From a virus, in IMG/VR virus record IMGVR_UViG_3300033149_005320, positions 1 through 29,226 of that record: DNA of 29,226 nt; one strand, written 5' to 3'. Shown here piece by piece: positions 5,551 to 24,193 of the stretch. Below the pieces are notes generated by a model. That model searched no databases and was not told the DNA's origin. It saw only the letters and a program-made list of their open reading frames with translations. Position numbers and translations under genes: made by a program. Every line of letters begins with the position of its first letter. The first letter of the stretch is position 1.

Positions 5551-7527
5551 ATGTCAATTTTGGGAGACGCTTTAAGTAAGGGAAAAAGCCTTGTTGATGG
5601 CTTGCTTGTTCCGAAATATAAGGACAAGGATATCGAGCCGATTACGAAGAAGGATTTGTGGACTGCGAATATTACAAACGCGTTGTGCAAGAAGGCTTAT
5701 GAGCGGAATGGTGTCACGAGAAAGCTGGTTAATAAGTTGGCGAACGATACTTTTGACAATTGGTTTTATGTTGAGTCAGAGAACCAGCAGCTGATTGATG
5801 ACGTGGTAAATGTTTTTTCTGCAAAGAGCAAGTGGCTGCATGATGACGAAGTAAAGTATTTGAACTTGCAGTGGAATTTAAAAGAAGCTTACAAGGTTGG
5901 AATGGTTGAGGGCTATGCGCTTTTAGTTTTAGGATTTTCAGACGATGCGTCGCTGAGTGAGGAACTTGATAACCCAAGAAGCTTGGATTATTTGAGTATT
6001 CTTACACCAAGCGATGTTAAAAAACTGATTTTGGATGAGGATGAGAACAGTGACACGTTTGGGGAATTGATTGCAGCAAAAGTAAAGATTGGGAAAGGAG
6101 AGCCGAAAGTAATTCATGCAAGCAGGTTTATTTTTTTGCCTGTGAACACTTATGGAAACAGTGTGAACGGCATTGGGCTTGTTAGGCCTGCTTATAATTA
6201 TTTGACTGTTTTGGACAACGTGTTCTGGAGCACGGGCCAGAGCTTTTATAGGTATGCTTCTGGTTTTCCGCATATTAAAAAGAAGGGCGGAACACCCACG
6301 GAAATGAATAAGATTAAAGCTCAGTGGAAGGAAGTAAACAGTTTGACTGGTTGGGTAAGCAATGATGACACGGAAATAGATTTTACTGGAGCAAAGGCAA
6401 CGGCTTTGGATCCGGAGAAATACTTTAACGTGGCTTTGACTGGAGTAGCGATGTGTTTTGATATTCCGGTGGATATTGTGAAGGGCGTTGCAGCAGGAGC
6501 TGTGACCGGAAGTGAGACAAACCTGAAGGACTATTACTCGGACATTTCTTCAAAACAGCAGTTGGATTGGACGCCGATAATCGAGCAGCTTATCACGATT
6601 TTGCAGGAAACGAAGCAGGTTGTCCAGGGCGAGTTTAGGATAGTGTGGAATCCTTTGGAGGAAATGGATGAGAAGGAAATGGCTGAGATTGAAAAGCTGA
6701 AGGCTGAAACAGAGAAGTTGAGGATTGAGGCTGGGAGTTTGGATCCTCAGGAAGTAAGGGCTGTTAGGTTAAAGGAATCAAAGCAGGATAGCAAGCTGGA
6801 TCAGATTGAGTATAATTATGAGTTTCCTGAGGAAACCCATTTGGATGCTGGAAGAGTTGAAAAGATAGCACAGCAGTATTCTGATGACATAACCAGGCTT
6901 TTCAGCGTTTCAGAGATAGTTAAAGCAATTAAAGACAGCGAGGTTGAGGGAATTCTTAATGATGATTATGGGGATCTTGAGAAGGACTTGGGTTTGATTG
7001 AAGAGGCCAGGAAGAAAAAACTTAAGGAAGCTGTGGATAAAAACATAGATGAGGCTTGGCAATATGGCTGGGACGTTGCAGAAATACAGCTTGACAAGAA
7101 CATTATAGCAACCGAGACTGCTTTGAAAATAAGAAAAATTTTGAAGCAATCAAATTACGCTTTTGTGAACGCTGTTGGAACAGATGTCACGAAAAAAACC
7201 TTGTTTGCTGTCCAGCAGGGAATTCTTAACGGGGAAAGCATTTCAAAGATTCGGAAGAGAATTGAGCCAATCATTGAGGGAGCAAAGCATAACGCTGACA
7301 CTATTGCCAGGACAGAAACCCACAGGGCAATGACGAAAGCAATCGTGCAAAACTACAAGGATTCTGGAATAGTAAAAAAAGTAAAGTACATTACTGCAGG
7401 GGACGACGTTGTCAGGCCATCGCATGCAGCATTGAACGGCCAGATTTTTGACGTCAACAACTTGCCGTCGGAATTGGATGAACCGAATTGCAGGTGCACT
7501 GTTGTGGCTTATTTTGGAGGGAGCTAA
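5551..7527 (+). CDS. Portal protein fused to MuF-like head morphogenesis domain
   Basis: This encodes 658 residues; GAGGA 7 bases before ATG 5551 sets the start. Residues 1 to about 390 resemble the DUF1073-type portal: ITNALCKKAYERNGVTRKLVNKLANDTF, GYALLVLGF, SILTPSDVKK, then the clamp-like segment DIPVDIVKGVAAGAVTGSE. The portal is the dodecameric ring at one head vertex through which TerL drives DNA. A charged coiled-coil linker (about 365-410) leads to a helical region and a C-terminal MuF (SPP1 gp7-like) domain: IARTETHRAMTKA, then VRPSHAALNGQIFDV and EPNCRCTVVAYF with the conserved CRC. MuF proteins are few-copy minor head proteins. The fusion makes both in one chain and fixes their stoichiometry. 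Such fusions are known but not the rule. Confidence 0.9.
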   Translation: MSILGDALSKGKSLVDGLLVPKYKDKDIEPITKKDLWTANITNALCKKAYERNGVTRKLVNKLANDTFDNWFYVESENQQLIDDVVNVFSAKSKWLHDDEVKYLNLQWNLKEAYKVGMVEGYALLVLGFSDDASLSEELDNPRSLDYLSILTPSDVKKLILDEDENSDTFGELIAAKVKIGKGEPKVIHASRFIFLPVNTYGNSVNGIGLVRPAYNYLTVLDNVFWSTGQSFYRYASGFPHIKKKGGTPTEMNKIKAQWKEVNSLTGWVSNDDTEIDFTGAKATALDPEKYFNVALTGVAMCFDIPVDIVKGVAAGAVTGSETNLKDYYSDISSKQQLDWTPIIEQLITILQETKQVVQGEFRIVWNPLEEMDEKEMAEIEKLKAETEKLRIEAGSLDPQEVRAVRLKESKQDSKLDQIEYNYEFPEETHLDAGRVEKIAQQYSDDITRLFSVSEIVKAIKDSEVEGILNDDYGDLEKDLGLIEEARKKKLKEAVDKNIDEAWQYGWDVAEIQLDKNIIATETALKIRKILKQSNYAFVNAVGTDVTKKTLFAVQQGILNGESISKIRKRIEPIIEGAKHNADTIARTETHRAMTKAIVQNYKDSGIVKKVKYITAGDDVVRPSHAALNGQIFDVNNLPSELDEPNCRCTVVAYFGGS

Positions 7528-7851
7528 ATGGTTAAGGTCATTGAAGTAGTGCAGAACGATGAGCTTTACGATATTGAGTTTATTGTAAAGGATTACTCCG
7601 GAACAGTGGTTGATCTTACGGATGTTTCTGAAATAAAATTGAAGGCCGCAACAGTTGGTGGAACAACGCTTGAATTGGACGATGACTGCACGATAGTGGA
7701 TGCAGCAAGCGGAACCTGCAAGTACACGGTTCAAAGCGGCGAGCTCGCAACAGTCGGGCTTTATCATGCTGAATTACAGATAACGTATTCAGGAGGAAAA
7801 ATAATCACTACTAAAAGATTTGACATAAGAGTAGTGAAGGATTTGCCATAA
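7528..7851 (+). CDS. BppU N-terminal-like beta-sandwich protein
   Basis: This encodes 107 residues and starts directly at the portal stop, with GGAGG inside the portal gene end. The pattern of DIEFIVKDYSGTVVDLTDVSEIKLKAA, a conserved middle strand, then GLYHAELQITYSGGKIITTKRFDIRV is that of the Ig-like N-terminal domain of baseplate-upper (BppU-type) proteins, which attach receptor-binding parts to virions. Here it stands alone as one domain. Its place next to the portal hints that it may sit on the head or neck. Assignment is by pattern recognition. Confidence 0.65.
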   Translation: MVKVIEVVQNDELYDIEFIVKDYSGTVVDLTDVSEIKLKAATVGGTTLELDDDCTIVDAASGTCKYTVQSGELATVGLYHAELQITYSGGKIITTKRFDIRVVKDLP

Positions 7852-8662: not shown

Positions 8663-9211
8663 ATGGACTCCAGCATTTATTGGAAAGCAATCTATAAGGA
8701 TGGCACGAGCTTGTGCCAGTTTGAAGAAAATGGAACCGAGAACAAGTACCCGGACATTGACCGGTACAAACTAACTGCTTTTGAAATCCGAAAGGCTGCA
8801 GTTGGAGAGCAGCCGGACAGGCTTTTGTTCAAAATGTTTATAGAGCCGGGCCGCAGGTTGATTTACAGGCGCAGAGTTTTGGAGAGAATGCGGTTTGGGA
8901 AAGCAGAGCCAGAGCTTGTTAAGAGAGAGATTGTTTATTTGGTTGGCTGGCAGGCTACTATTGGCGGTCGGAATGTGCAGGATATTGCTTATGTTTTTCC
9001 TGATGGGCATGTTGAGCTTGCAGGCAAATGGAGAGAAGCCCCTTATAATGCGATAGGAAATCCTTTATCGGTTGAAACGAAGTGTTATGACGAGAGACAT
9101 TTTACTGTTGGCGCGGTGCTTTTGAAAAAGGGAAAGAAGGAAGTGTCTGCTGGAGCGATTCTGGTCAAGAAAGAAACAAAAAAGGAGATTGAGGATGGCA
9201 AAGAAGTTTAA
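8663..9211 (+). CDS. Virion-associated protein with two FTADA-like repeat units at its C-terminus
   Basis: This encodes 182 residues from ATG 8663, with AAGGAGGG upstream. Residues 1-60 hold WKAIYKDGTSLCQF and YPDIDRYKLTAFEI, a pattern I recall from small proteins next to fibre genes in tailed viruses. The rest of the core is beta-rich. Residues 147-174 hold two degenerate units of a 14-residue repeat, FTVGAVLLKKGKKE and VSAGAILVKKETKK, related to the repeats of the next gene. It overlaps that gene by 17 bases. It may be a fibre-attachment or fibre-assembly partner; function is not established. Confidence 0.65.
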   Translation: MDSSIYWKAIYKDGTSLCQFEENGTENKYPDIDRYKLTAFEIRKAAVGEQPDRLLFKMFIEPGRRLIYRRRVLERMRFGKAEPELVKREIVYLVGWQATIGGRNVQDIAYVFPDGHVELAGKWREAPYNAIGNPLSVETKCYDERHFTVGAVLLKKGKKEVSAGAILVKKETKKEIEDGKEV

Positions 9212-12182
9212 GAAAATAAATGACAATACCTTTAAGTTAGCCATTGGCAGCGAGGAAATAGAAGTCGGAAACAAAGATGCTGCTGAATTTAAGCCCTCTG
9301 CAAAGCTCAAAAAGTGGGGCGAAGAATGCTTTTTAAATATTGGTTTGCCAACAACCGAGAATGTTTCTGCAGTAATTGAATATGACAAGCTTAAATGGAA
9401 AGGGAAAAAAAAAGAAGTAGTATTTTATGCTAAGGACAAAAAGGTCTATGAAAGCCTGAGCGATACAGGCATAGTTTATCCTTCTCTGGATGACAGCCAT
9501 ACTGTCGAGATTGTTGGAAGCGATCCACAAAAGCTTTTAATTGATGGCGAAGAGTGGATGTCGGATGCGAAGAGCGAAGTAGATTTCCACAAACAAATTG
9601 CCGACGCGGCAACCGGTGACGTCCTTGTGGCCGGGCTGGGCCTCGGGATAGTGCAAGAGTTCCTGCTGCAGAATCCGGCAGTGACATCAGTCATCACAGT
9701 CGAGGCCGTCCAGGAAGTGATTGACAAGCTGCAGGAAATAAAACCGCAGATCTTCGTCGGGAAGCATACAATCGTCCACGACGACTGTTTCTCATACTGC
9801 CAAACAACAAGCAAAAAGTTCGATTACATTTACGGCGACATCTGGATCCAATCAGGGCCGCGGTACTTCTATGAGTGGGAAAAGTTTGAAGCAGCTACAA
9901 GCCCTCTTCTTAAAGCCGGAGGAGTTATTGACTCTTTCCTGAAGAGGGACTATGAGCGCGCAATCTGTGAAACAACCGACGCCTTTGAAATGGAATTAAT
10001 TCTGAAAGAAAAGCCTTCAGACAATAAATTCCTTTTCGACATAGAAACCCAGGGCCTCAAATTCTACTATCAGAAGTTCCTGACACAGGAAGAAAAAGAC
10101 GCCGGCTCTTTCAGGTTGCCTGATGTTGAAGGCAGCTATGCCGTCTATCACTCGTTTAAGAAAAACAACAAATACAAAGCAGGGAAGGCATTCCATATTT
10201 ATAGGCCCAAGGCCTTTGACGCGGACGGAAAGGAAACCTGGTGTGTACTTCACATTGACGAAGCAGCCGGCAAATTAGAAATCACCGTGCCGCAAGAGTT
10301 TTTGGATAGTGGAAAATACCCAATTATTATAGATCCGACATTCGGTGAGACAGAGAAAGGCGGAACGGTTTGGTCAATTACAAATGCTTCTGCTGTAACA
10401 GGATCATCTTTTACAATGCCCGCTTCAGGAACAGGGAATTGGATAAAAGCATATATACTTGAACAGGGAATTGGTTCTACATCCCACTTGTCAAAAGCAG
10501 CAATATATGATCACAGCGATTCTACCACAATCACAAACGGAGTTACTGATGAGGAAACGATCCCTGCAGCACAGGATGCGGATTTCCAATGGACGTTCGG
10601 TACAGATCCAGATCTTACAAAAGACGATGTTTATATTTTGGTTTGCTGGGCTGCAACAGCTGCAAGAACCAATGTAAATATGTATTATGATGATGGTGTT
10701 GGAACAGAGCAAGGGCATGAATATGACAAAGCATATGACGGGACTTTTACAAGCCCTGCAACATTCTCTCACTTAGATGCGACATTTACAATTTATTGTG
10801 ATTATACAGTTGGAGGCGCAACAGAAACCAAAACCTTCATAGCAGACGCAATCCTTGTGGATCGCTTGACGAAAACATTCACTGCGGACGCTTTCTTGTT
10901 GGCGCATGGCCTGACGAAGGAATTCACAGCAGATGCATATTTGAGGAAAATCGGGACGAAAGAGTTTACTGCTGACGCTTACTTGCGAGCAGTGCAAACG
11001 AAAGTCTTTACAGTGGATGCGTACTTGCGCAAGACAGGGAGTAAGGAATTTGTTGCAGATGCTGTGCTAGTGGACCGGTTGACAAAGCAGTTTTCAGCGG
11101 ACGCCTTCCTGCAGAAAGAACAGAGCAAAGAATTTGAGGCAGATGGGATCCTGGTAAACAGGCACACGAAGGAACTCACAGCAGACGCGTACCTGCGAAA
11201 GCCATTCACTAAGACGTTCTCGGCAGACGCTTTTCTAAGGGCAGTGCAAACAAAGGAATTTACTGCAGACGCATACTTGCAGAGCCAGGGCCTGACAAAA
11301 GCCTTCACCGCAGACGCTTACTTGAGGAAATCATACACGAAACAGTTCACAGTGGATTCATATTTGCAGAGTAAAGGTCTTACAAAAGCTTTTACTGCCG
11401 ATGCGATTTTGCATGTTGCGACAGTAAAACAATTTACGGCAGATGCAATCCTGAAGGCTACATTCACAAAGGAGTTCACAGCAGACGCTTTCCTGAGGAA
11501 GGTTCAGACAAAGGAATTTACTGGGGATGCGATAGTAGTCAACAGGGAGACGAAGACGTTCTCTGCCGATGCGTTCCTGCTGGCAACGCAAACAAAAGCA
11601 TTTACTGGGAATGCGGTGGTTGTTGACCGGCTGACAAAAACCTTTACAGCAGATGCATTACTACGAATAATTTATTTCAAATCATTTACTGCGGATGCAT
11701 TCTTAAGAGCCGTTTTCACGAAGACGTTTTCTGCGGATGCTTTCCTGCAAAAGAAGGGATTGACAAAGACCTTCAGCGCGGACGCTGTGTTGCGCTTAGT
11801 AGCAACGAAGGAATTCACTGCTAATGCTATTTTGAAGGTAAGGAAAACGAAGGTCTTTACTGCGGACGCTTGGATCAGGCTCCGGACAACAAAGACCTTT
11901 ACAGCCAATGCTATCCTGAGAGTAGTAACAATAAAGACCTTTACTGTTGACGCAGTGCTAACAGGCACCGGGACAAAAACAATGACGGCGGACGCGATCC
12001 TTCACAGGTCATTCATAAGGCATCAGTTGGACGTGCATCTCAGGGACCCGAGGCTTACAGTAGAACTGCGAGATCCGACGCTCGATGTTAAGCTGAGGAA
12101 GCCGTCGCTGGATGTGGAGACAAGGAAAAGAGATCTTGATGTAAAGCTGAGAAAACTCTCATTGGACGTGGAAATTGCTTAA
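9195..12182 (+). CDS. Giant repeat fibre protein with an embedded SAM-methyltransferase-like domain
   Basis: This encodes 995 residues. ATG 9195 is chosen because GGAG at 9184-9187 is 7 bases upstream; TTG 9189 is too close. Order: residues 1-90, start of a beta-rich fibre module (FKPSAKLKKWGEECFLNIGLPT). Residues about 91-262 are a class I methyltransferase/spermidine-synthase-like domain with VLVAGLGLGIV (143-153) and Glu170 after the second strand. Residues 263-390 resume the fibre module (FEMELILKEKP, then FDIETQGLKFYYQKFLT, GSYAVYHS, YPIIIDPTFGETEKGG). Residues 391-541 are beta-sandwich. Then come 28 repeats TKxFTADAxL of 14-15 residues and a C-terminus of 9-residue LDVxLRxxx repeats. 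It is probably a long virion fibre. The embedded domain has more GC-rich, C-ending codons. Enzyme activity is not shown. Confidence 0.85.
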   Translation: MAKKFKKINDNTFKLAIGSEEIEVGNKDAAEFKPSAKLKKWGEECFLNIGLPTTENVSAVIEYDKLKWKGKKKEVVFYAKDKKVYESLSDTGIVYPSLDDSHTVEIVGSDPQKLLIDGEEWMSDAKSEVDFHKQIADAATGDVLVAGLGLGIVQEFLLQNPAVTSVITVEAVQEVIDKLQEIKPQIFVGKHTIVHDDCFSYCQTTSKKFDYIYGDIWIQSGPRYFYEWEKFEAATSPLLKAGGVIDSFLKRDYERAICETTDAFEMELILKEKPSDNKFLFDIETQGLKFYYQKFLTQEEKDAGSFRLPDVEGSYAVYHSFKKNNKYKAGKAFHIYRPKAFDADGKETWCVLHIDEAAGKLEITVPQEFLDSGKYPIIIDPTFGETEKGGTVWSITNASAVTGSSFTMPASGTGNWIKAYILEQGIGSTSHLSKAAIYDHSDSTTITNGVTDEETIPAAQDADFQWTFGTDPDLTKDDVYILVCWAATAARTNVNMYYDDGVGTEQGHEYDKAYDGTFTSPATFSHLDATFTIYCDYTVGGATETKTFIADAILVDRLTKTFTADAFLLAHGLTKEFTADAYLRKIGTKEFTADAYLRAVQTKVFTVDAYLRKTGSKEFVADAVLVDRLTKQFSADAFLQKEQSKEFEADGILVNRHTKELTADAYLRKPFTKTFSADAFLRAVQTKEFTADAYLQSQGLTKAFTADAYLRKSYTKQFTVDSYLQSKGLTKAFTADAILHVATVKQFTADAILKATFTKEFTADAFLRKVQTKEFTGDAIVVNRETKTFSADAFLLATQTKAFTGNAVVVDRLTKTFTADALLRIIYFKSFTADAFLRAVFTKTFSADAFLQKKGLTKTFSADAVLRLVATKEFTANAILKVRKTKVFTADAWIRLRTTKTFTANAILRVVTIKTFTVDAVLTGTGTKTMTADAILHRSFIRHQLDVHLRDPRLTVELRDPTLDVKLRKPSLDVETRKRDLDVKLRKLSLDVEIA
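9462..9980 (+). other. Region encoding the embedded methyltransferase-like domain
   Basis: Residues 90-262 of the repeat fibre. An N-terminal beta segment HTVEIVGSDPQKLLIDG leads to WMSDAKSEVDFHKQI, then the glycine loop GLGLG, an acidic strand end VE at 169-170, and FDYIYGDIW (209-217). This is the order of spermidine-synthase-type Rossmann methyltransferases. Codons here are often C- or G-ending (gac, gtc, gcc, ctg), unlike the flanks, most clearly from 9600 to 9870. Confidence 0.7.
10827..12014 (+). repeat. 28 tandem repeats of a 14-15 residue FTADA unit
   Basis: The consensus is TK-x-F-T-A-D-A-x-L-x4. I count 24 units of 14 residues and four of 15 (those ending in GL), which sum exactly to the 396 codons present. 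The DNA copies differ widely, so the array is old or under selection against exact repetition. Confidence 0.92.
12027..12179 (+). repeat. Six short 9-residue LDVxLR repeats at the fibre C-terminus
   Basis: Units LDVHLRDPR, LTVELRDPT, LDVKLRKPS, LDVETRKRD, LDVKLRKLS and a partial LDVEIA follow the 14-residue array directly. Alternating hydrophobic and charged residues suggest a beta-helical or trimeric stem tip. Confidence 0.85.
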
Positions 12183-16636: not shown

Positions 16637-17055
16637 TGGCAGCAAGAGTTTATGATGACAATCCTGCTTTTGTGGCACCTGCTTTTACAAGAACCGCTGA
16701 TGGCACAATAGTGTTTGGCGCACTTGTTGAAGTTGGCGCATCAGCAGGGGAGGTCAAGGAAACCGCAGGAGAGACAAGCGTTGCCATTGGAGTAGCATGG
16801 ACTGATGAAGCCATCTATGACAAGACCGGTGACAGCCAGTACACTGACGGTGATGCTGTGATTGTTAAAGCCCTTTTACCAGGGAAAATCTACTATCTGA
16901 AAGCCAGTGAAGCTATCTCTGAGGGAGATAACGTTCACCCAGCTGCAGATGGAGAGATTGCAAAGCACACAAACGGAACCAATGATTACCTGATTGTTGG
17001 AACAGCCTTGGAGGACATTGGAAGTGGCTCCTACGGCAGGATTTTAGTGAGGTGA
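16636..17055 (+). CDS. Capsid decoration protein (DUF2190-like)
   Basis: This encodes 139 residues and starts by TAATG overlap at the scaffold stop. The sequence ALVEVGASAGEVKETAGETSVAIGVAWTDE, then DGDAVIVKALLPGKIYYLKASEAISEGDNVHPAADGEI and YLIVGTALEDIGSGSYGRILV follows the short beta-domain pattern of phage decoration proteins found just before the major capsid gene. It would bind the outside of the expanded head and stabilise it. The position directly upstream of the capsid protein supports this. Confidence 0.78.
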   Translation: MAARVYDDNPAFVAPAFTRTADGTIVFGALVEVGASAGEVKETAGETSVAIGVAWTDEAIYDKTGDSQYTDGDAVIVKALLPGKIYYLKASEAISEGDNVHPAADGEIAKHTNGTNDYLIVGTALEDIGSGSYGRILVR

Positions 17056-17060
17056 GCAGG

Positions 17061-17903
17061 ATGAGACAATTAAATGCAATAATGAACGATGCAGCCCTAA
17101 CCTCAGAAGAGTACAGGGAGATCAGAAAGGCAGTAGTCGAGCCTCGCTATGACAACCTGGCGGGAAGACAGGTAATTCCTGTGAGAAAGGTTGGAATAGG
17201 AAGGCAAGAATACGGCCACGACGTGCTGAGTGAATCCGGAGCAGCTGACCTCATTAAGAAGGCAACCAATTTTCCAGGAATGGATGTCAATAAGACAAGG
17301 AGTTTGACATGGATTCCGAAAATAGGTGTGTCTTTTGCGATAGCGAGGGAAGACCTGCTTTCAAGCAGGGAGTACGGCGAACCATTGAATACTCTTATGG
17401 CGCGCAGGGCCAGCAGGCTTGTGCAAAATAAAGAGAACACAATGATTGTCGCAGGAACAGATACTCCTTACTCGATTACAGGGCTTTATGAAGCAGTTGC
17501 TTCAGGTAACACTGTTTCAGGTTCAGACTGGGGATCAAATGATCCGACTACTGACGTGATTTCGGCAATTGGAAAAATTGGATCCACGTTTAACTCGGAT
17601 ACTTTGCTGTTGAACCCAGTGCAGTACAAAGAGTTGCTGAGAAGGAATACTAATACGGATAAAATGTACATAGACCTAATAAGGGACATGGGCATTACTC
17701 CGAAGATAGACAAGGATATCACGGCAGGCACAGGTTTGCTTATGGCAACAGGGGCAGACATTGCGGAGCTCATTGTAGCTGAGGACCTGGACGTGGAAGA
17801 GGATTACGTGCTGAGCAATCAGTCGTACATTTTCAACGCGTTCCTGAGAAGTGTGCCGGTTGTTTACGAAAGCGACGCACTTTGTACAATTACAGGGATC
17901 TAA
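17061..17903 (+). CDS. Major capsid protein, HK97 fold
   Basis: This encodes 280 residues. ATG 17061 is preferred over GTG 17052 because GAGGTGA at 17049-17055 is correctly spaced only for the former. Seen: an N-terminal helical arm, then RQVIPVRKVGIGRQEYGHDVL, the spine-helix region PLNTLMARRASRLVQNKENTMIVAGTD, LLLNPVQYKELLRR and the beta segment LIVAEDLDVEEDYVLSNQ. This is the layout of short HK97-fold capsid proteins, close in style to encapsulin-like and archaeal-virus types. It forms the icosahedral shell. The preceding scaffold and decoration genes agree. The stop codon lies inside a hairpin at 17894-17911. Confidence 0.82.
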   Translation: MRQLNAIMNDAALTSEEYREIRKAVVEPRYDNLAGRQVIPVRKVGIGRQEYGHDVLSESGAADLIKKATNFPGMDVNKTRSLTWIPKIGVSFAIAREDLLSSREYGEPLNTLMARRASRLVQNKENTMIVAGTDTPYSITGLYEAVASGNTVSGSDWGSNDPTTDVISAIGKIGSTFNSDTLLLNPVQYKELLRRNTNTDKMYIDLIRDMGITPKIDKDITAGTGLLMATGADIAELIVAEDLDVEEDYVLSNQSYIFNAFLRSVPVVYESDALCTITGI

Positions 17904-23803: not shown

Positions 23804-24193
23804 ATGGTTGACAAAACGTTTACTGCAGATGCGATTTTGTATTTGGATGGGAAAATTACTCTGGGAGCCCTAACTTTAACGGTTGATTATGATGAAATTA
23901 GGCCTAAGTATAAAATAAACAGTGCCAAGCACACGATTTTAAGCGCTTCGAACTCAAAAAGGCAATTTTTGGGTAGAGACTCGCATCAATATGACATTAA
24001 AGGAATCTTCTCCGGAGCGAACAAAGATACGGACATGACGACAATGAGGAACTACTATCTTAATAACACGGAAATAGCTTTCCAGGGCTATACCGATCTG
24101 GCAGTACAGGTGCGCATAATTGACCTGGAGGAACGTGACTATTACACTTATTGGGAATATAAGATTACAATTGAAGAAACAGGAGGGCTTTAA
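23804..24193 (+). CDS. Small distal tail protein carrying one FTADA unit
   Basis: This encodes 129 residues with GGTGAT just before the ATG. It opens with KTFTADAILYLDG, a single unit of the repeat that dominates the fibre at 9195-12182. The rest (DIKGIFSGANKDTDMTTMRNYYLNNTEIAFQGYTDLAVQVRIIDLEERDYYTYWEYKITIEE) resembles a small Dit-like/gp53-like tail-tip protein. Its place between tape measure and hub supports a distal-tail role. It may anchor a fibre by repeat pairing. Confidence 0.6.
   Translation: MVDKTFTADAILYLDGKITLGALTLTVDYDEIRPKYKINSAKHTILSASNSKRQFLGRDSHQYDIKGIFSGANKDTDMTTMRNYYLNNTEIAFQGYTDLAVQVRIIDLEERDYYTYWEYKITIEETGGL

Follow-up and report, generated by a model that had tools for sequence, protein, structure and literature searches.

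A methyltransferase-type domain inserted into a loop of a fibre-like protein from an uncultivated tailed virus

The fibre-like protein of 995 residues encoded by IMGVR_UViG_3300033149_005320, the 29.2-kb record of an uncultivated virus, contains a methyltransferase-type domain which is inserted between the two halves of a fibre module, and we regard both the identity of this domain and its insertion as practically certain. The window, i.e. the whole stretch of DNA analyzed here, comprises 29,226 nucleotides of this record. The initial annotation of the same DNA had already placed such a domain within a fibre protein; what our analysis mainly adds is that inserts recur in this module in other viruses.

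The genes of the record are those of a tailed virus and encode, among others, a terminase-like protein, a portal with MuF, a DUF2213 (protease-type) protein, a major capsid protein, a tape measure and tail proteins. The cluster that contains the gene for the 995-aa protein is placed between the portal and DUF2213 and also includes a BppU_N protein (7528-7851). The last 17 nt of the upstream ORF (8663-9211), stop included, are shared with the start of the fibre-like gene. The open reading frame is genuine, and the domain lies where it had been placed, its extent on the fibre profile (Table 1) being close to the earlier estimate of 9462-9980. Within the protein the module gives way to another segment, which extends to about residue 545; then come the repeats and finally a short end.

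Table 1. Coordinates of the fibre-like gene, its parts and conserved motifs in the window, and of inserts in related fibre genes
Feature	Position	Strand	Evidence or remark
Fibre-like gene, 995 aa	9195..12182	+	ATG 9195, stop 12180-12182, AAGGAG before start
Fibre module, N-terminal half, residues 1-83	9195..9443	+	fibre profile, E 3e-14
Inserted methyltransferase-type domain, residues ~84-259	9444..9971	+	profiles, AlphaFold, structural matches, fibre-profile alignment
Family motif MSDAKSE, M122 to E128	9558..9578	+	conserved in stand-alone relatives
Motif I GLGLG, residues 147-151, predicted SAM-binding loop	9633..9647	+	alignment with stand-alone family
E170, acidic end of strand 2	9702..9704	+	alignment with stand-alone family
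D197	9783..9785	+	alignment with stand-alone family
DIW, residues 215-217	9837..9845	+	D invariant, W near-invariant in stand-alone family
Fibre module, C-terminal half, residues 260-390	9972..10364	+	fibre profile, E 8e-53
About 28 tandem 14-residue repeats, TKxFTADAxLxxxx, shaft-like	10824..11999	+	also in L002
Second-kind insert, same loop	L034:3221-3955		
Second-kind insert, same loop	L045:3140-3970		also in L064
Second-kind insert, same loop	L224:2772-3542		
Second-kind insert, same loop	L269:2742-3488		
Methyltransferase-bearing fibre, second of two adjacent fibre genes	L053:7248-8477 (L162:5001-7574)		

Recognizable halves of the module lie on both sides of the domain, as had been described, and in the relatives of these flanks the two halves are joined directly by a short loop. 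In the fibre-profile alignment this native loop measures 33 residues or less in all but a handful of 136 distinct modules, and the methyltransferase domain of the window is present in just one of them. The search for homologous fibres free of the domain, which had been proposed as a check on the insertion, accordingly found that nearly all of these 136 modules lack it. The closest architecture is that of L002, which has no insert, shares the 14-residue repeats and is 55% identical to the window's protein in the C-terminal half of the module (the corresponding value for MW202647 is 41%). Directly upstream of its insert-free fibre, L002 encodes a 261-aa protein (L002:429-1214) with no Pfam or PHROG match.

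Since the relatives of the flanks have the short loop and the frames that hold relatives of the enzyme do not exceed 370 aa (the longest stop-to-stop frame among about 90 stand-alone relatives from phages and IMG/VR), the fusion is unique to the window's record in the collections searched. Two scans of IMG/VR, for the module and for the insert, brought up no protein closely related to the fusion, and a search of 12 fibre-bearing records, run without a positive control, found no stand-alone copy of the domain. The first-ranked BFVD match, A0A5Q2W7D1 (E 1.3e-20, 402 columns), was not accepted as a second fused protein because the columns count gaps and a TMq of 0.50 is what the two fibre halves would give by themselves.

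When the excised domain was searched against PHROG, phrog_15480 ('methyltransferase') was matched with an E-value of 4.3e-15 over positions 65-193 of the 245 of the profile. Pfam PF01564 (Spermine_synth) matched it with an E-value of 5.9e-5 and 23.1 bits, against a gathering score of 22.9, while the whole 995-aa protein reached 20.2 bits and stayed under this cut-off. Both matches bear out the methyltransferase-type Rossmann domain that had initially been recognized from GLGLG (147-151), VE (E170) and FDYIYGD (209-215). Stand-alone relatives of the insert were found by tblastn in 24 phage records, and an alignment-based IMG/VR scan with the insert family yielded 134 relatives, 80 of which were retained.

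The AlphaFold model has a mean pLDDT of 81 over the 395 residues modelled, with low-confidence stretches at 87-98, 216-226 and 250-257; its input was alignment A4, in which the fibre rows are right and the methyltransferase rows are misplaced past the HDD motif, as alignments mixing fibres and methyltransferases misplace one of the two groups. The N-terminal half of the module consists of beta strands with a pLDDT of about 90, and the insert is modelled as a separate alpha/beta domain, not as part of the fibre beta domain, which is the outcome for which the initial annotation had suggested a structure prediction. The top rows of the Foldseek search were thermospermine and spermidine synthases (E about 5e-8). 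With VIA-align the best structural alignment was to guanidinoacetate N-methyltransferase (Z 16.0, rmsd 2.7, 155 residues, model 92-255), yet at 22% identity, and as the following rows lie within a few Z of it, the similarity is secure for the fold only.

The alternative suggestion of a polyamine enzyme fared less well. The insert has the Rossmann core in common with the spermidine synthases and aminopropyltransferases (PF01564), but those have GGGDG and DxxDP where the insert has GLGLG and DIW (DIWI at the positions aligned with DxxDP), and polyamine synthesis is not supported on these grounds. The spermidine-synthase motifs are absent from the insert and from the stand-alone family alike, and the NCBIfam spermidine synthase equivalog gave the insert a score of 18.5, its cut-off being 260. 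By family name and fold, a methyl-transfer-type domain would be a good reading of the insert. Profile and motifs assign it to the same family as the PHROG 15480 phage methyltransferases TPMD03_11 of Thiohalocapsa phage LS06-2018-MD03 and gp338 of Caulobacter CcrPW. These relatives, however, are stand-alone proteins, encoded in the neighbourhoods examined among replication and accessory genes, whereas the insert sits in a fibre module; it is filed here as a PHROG 15480 domain and not as a typical member protein of that family.

All 11 invariant columns of an 11-sequence alignment (MSD..E, GLGxG, E, D and DIW) are retained in the insert. In a larger set of 82 sequences the columns conserved to at least 98% are retained at M122, E128, G141, L144, G147, L148, G149, G151, E170, D215 and W217, the sole change being that of M152 to I; the value of 100% given there is inflated because GM was required by the scan pattern. 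Over the 31 well-conserved columns of the same set the insert keeps 71%, the mean being 91%. The conserved C-terminal W of the stand-alone relatives is F248 in the insert, and their N-terminal 45-60 residues or so are missing, profile columns 1-56 being unmatched. The insert's branch in the tree is long (2.32); its position beside L126 was distrusted as a long-branch join. With nearly all signature residues present, the insert is not visibly decayed as far as its sequence can tell.

The core of the insert (residues 113-220) has a GC3s of 0.629. As a control, 792 equal-size windows of the contig's other genes were used, in which the mean GC3s was 0.396 (sd 0.079) and the maximum 0.604, and the codon-usage likelihood of the core is lower than that of all 792. 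A foreign origin of the core is supported by this codon usage. The C/G-ending codons to which the initial annotation had drawn attention are thus confirmed for the core, whereas the contrast to the flanks is less clean than described, the N-terminal half having a GC3s of 0.35 but the C-terminal half one of 0.49.

Profile columns 88-92, which form the loop that holds the insert of the window, take a domain of about 220-277 aa in L034, L045/L064, L224 and L269. These inserts form a family of their own and gave no match to the insert of the window; Pfam and PDB-sequence searches with those of L034, L045, L224 and L269 likewise gave none, and for want of such support a lipoate-ligase-like look, noticed by eye, was dropped. 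An AlphaFold model with an insert of this kind was poor (pLDDT below 50 over the insert). In L053 the fibre contains a methyltransferase of another kind (Methyltransf_11, 24.9 bits, cut-off 21.2), whose DIGGGTG motif is intact. Reading the sequence directly places it in another loop, columns 129-137, between YQPTL and TPENVEGSYAVYH; hmmalign assigns it to the first loop, but the sequence itself puts it elsewhere. The paralogue next to it has no methyltransferase, and both adjacent fibre genes end in long STSTS repeats. Because a domain occupies the same loop in four other viruses and the methyltransferase of L053 another one, the module seems, from its sequences, to be a recurrent insertion platform, in which the loop used in the window would serve as an attachment point for additional parts. 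An apparent extra stretch of about 180 aa in L164:5043-6371, close to where the fibre module ends, may mark a third site of insertion.

The 995-aa protein is probably located in a virion fibre, judging from the neighbours of its homologues and from its own shaft-like 14-residue repeats. The module itself matched no Pfam or PHROG family. Structural genes were seen near the homologues at a few loci (L168, L034, L026 and L189). In detail, L168 has a PHROG tail-fibre gene (phrog_6320, 2e-47) directly upstream of the homologue and a major head protein about 2.5 kb downstream, L034 has a tail-fibre-like gene upstream, and portal or protease genes are nearby in L026, L168 and L189. Repeat-rich C-termini occur in part of the fibre family. 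The BppU_N gene of the window, which is of baseplate type and belongs to the same cluster, agrees with a fibre setting. The homologues in L024, L037 and L070 start with hydrophobic, signal-like stretches, so that not every family member need be a virion protein.

The explanation that we consider best overall, and which we put forward tentatively, is that of a fibre-inserted methyltransferase-type domain acting in the producing cell. A class I SAM-dependent methyltransferase-type domain of PHROG 15480 has entered, in frame, a loop of the beta-rich fibre-like module. Its residues make it rather likely that the insert still binds SAM; catalysis within the producing cell, directed at the virion or the envelope, is possible but more doubtful. 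Against a function stand the missing N-terminal residues, the change of W to F at 248 and the 71% of well-conserved columns kept. SAM is an intracellular (cytoplasmic) co-substrate, and action in the producing cell, where it occurs, is for this reason favoured over action on free virions. The target of methylation would lie near the nascent fibre and could be a protein of the virion, the fibre itself included, a glycan on such a protein, or some component of the host envelope. A glycan target is worth considering because a glycosyltransferase-like gene is present at 1-624 of the window and similar genes lie 51 bp from the fibre in L045 and 155 bp from it in L189. After release the domain would be displayed passively, without its co-substrate. 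It is rather unlikely that the module is, more broadly, a general docking platform on tailed viruses, in whose fixed loops SAM-dependent enzymes and other domains have been captured repeatedly, with the predicted fibre-tethered methyltransferase marking, in the course of infection, either the fibres of the virus itself or the envelope of its host.

A serious rival, if on the whole an unlikely one, is a repurposed, non-catalytic Rossmann domain which would be a bulky part for display or binding, contributing to host-ligand adhesion, spacing or trimer packing. Lectin-like domains serve as such parts on other fibres, and one relative (L037) bears a Laminin_G lectin-type domain elsewhere on its fibre. 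The different domain in the same loop of L034, L045/L064, L224 and L269 would likewise suggest that bulk or binding may be selected, and the insert's lack of the N-terminal residues and the C-terminal W found in stand-alone relatives fits as well. However, hardly any of the SAM-binding and DIW residues have been lost, and the methyltransferase that entered the module in L053 is a second, unrelated one with its motif intact.

A recent, non-adaptive or transitional gene fusion without stable function would account for the single known case of the domain in this module, for the foreign codon usage of its core and for its long tree branch, but we regard it as quite unlikely, as the 995-aa frame is open throughout, the signature residues are retained and the insert sits exactly in the loop which tolerates inserts in other viruses.

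The proposal of the initial annotation, an enzyme displayed on the virion which would modify the surface of the host or be active within it in the course of entry, appears improbable. The fibre-type setting agrees with it, and enzymes on tail spikes are generally common (depolymerases), but SAM is found inside cells, which makes an enzyme working outside the cell the least likely version, and we know of no fibres that enter the cell. A virion-borne methylase does exist in DarB of phage P1, a DNA adenine methylase with helicase that acts on injected DNA (PMC5512222); DarB is, however, a head protein whose action on DNA involves a helicase partner; the window's protein shows neither feature, and Pfam found no SF2 helicase domain over its 995 aa.

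A chimera from metagenome assembly is highly improbable. In its favour, there is a single contig with a sharp change in codon usage, and the IMG/VR scans turned up no independent contig that carries the fusion. Yet each junction keeps the frame and falls in the very columns that hold other inserts in four other distinct viruses; this recurrent-insertion pattern is the strongest argument against a chimera, chance being unlikely to hit that loop twice in frame.

Domain shuffling is already known from phage receptor-binding proteins, whose tail fibres and spikes are hot spots of mosaicism (PMC10684548), and so are methylases borne in virion heads (PMC5512222). The exchange of domains is alike in the window, where the domain gained is of SAM type and occupies a loop used repeatedly for insertion; methyltransferases are absent from the main text of the mosaicism paper. 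With DarB and the polyvalent proteins the window's protein would share a methylase domain in a virion protein, but its scaffold is fibre-like. In the open-access literature we found no precedent for a methyltransferase domain in a tail fibre or a fibre loop. The well-studied enzymes of phage fibres and spikes are mostly polysaccharide-cleaving. A SAM-type domain in a fibre loop, together with two unrelated methyltransferases in one module of different viruses, would suggest a route by which viruses label their receptor-binding parts or the envelope of the cell. The finding also locates, within a fibre scaffold, a site where insertion occurs naturally.

Some further features of the record were noted. 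A single reading frame (5551-7527) encodes a fusion of the portal protein (Phage_portal_3) with the Mu F-like domain, and the major capsid protein (17052-17903) matches Linocin_M18 of the encapsulin family (1.7e-15) better than Major_capside (9e-9). Finally, the gene at 23804 starts with the 14-residue repeat motif of the fibre (23804-23860, VDKTFTADAILYLDG).
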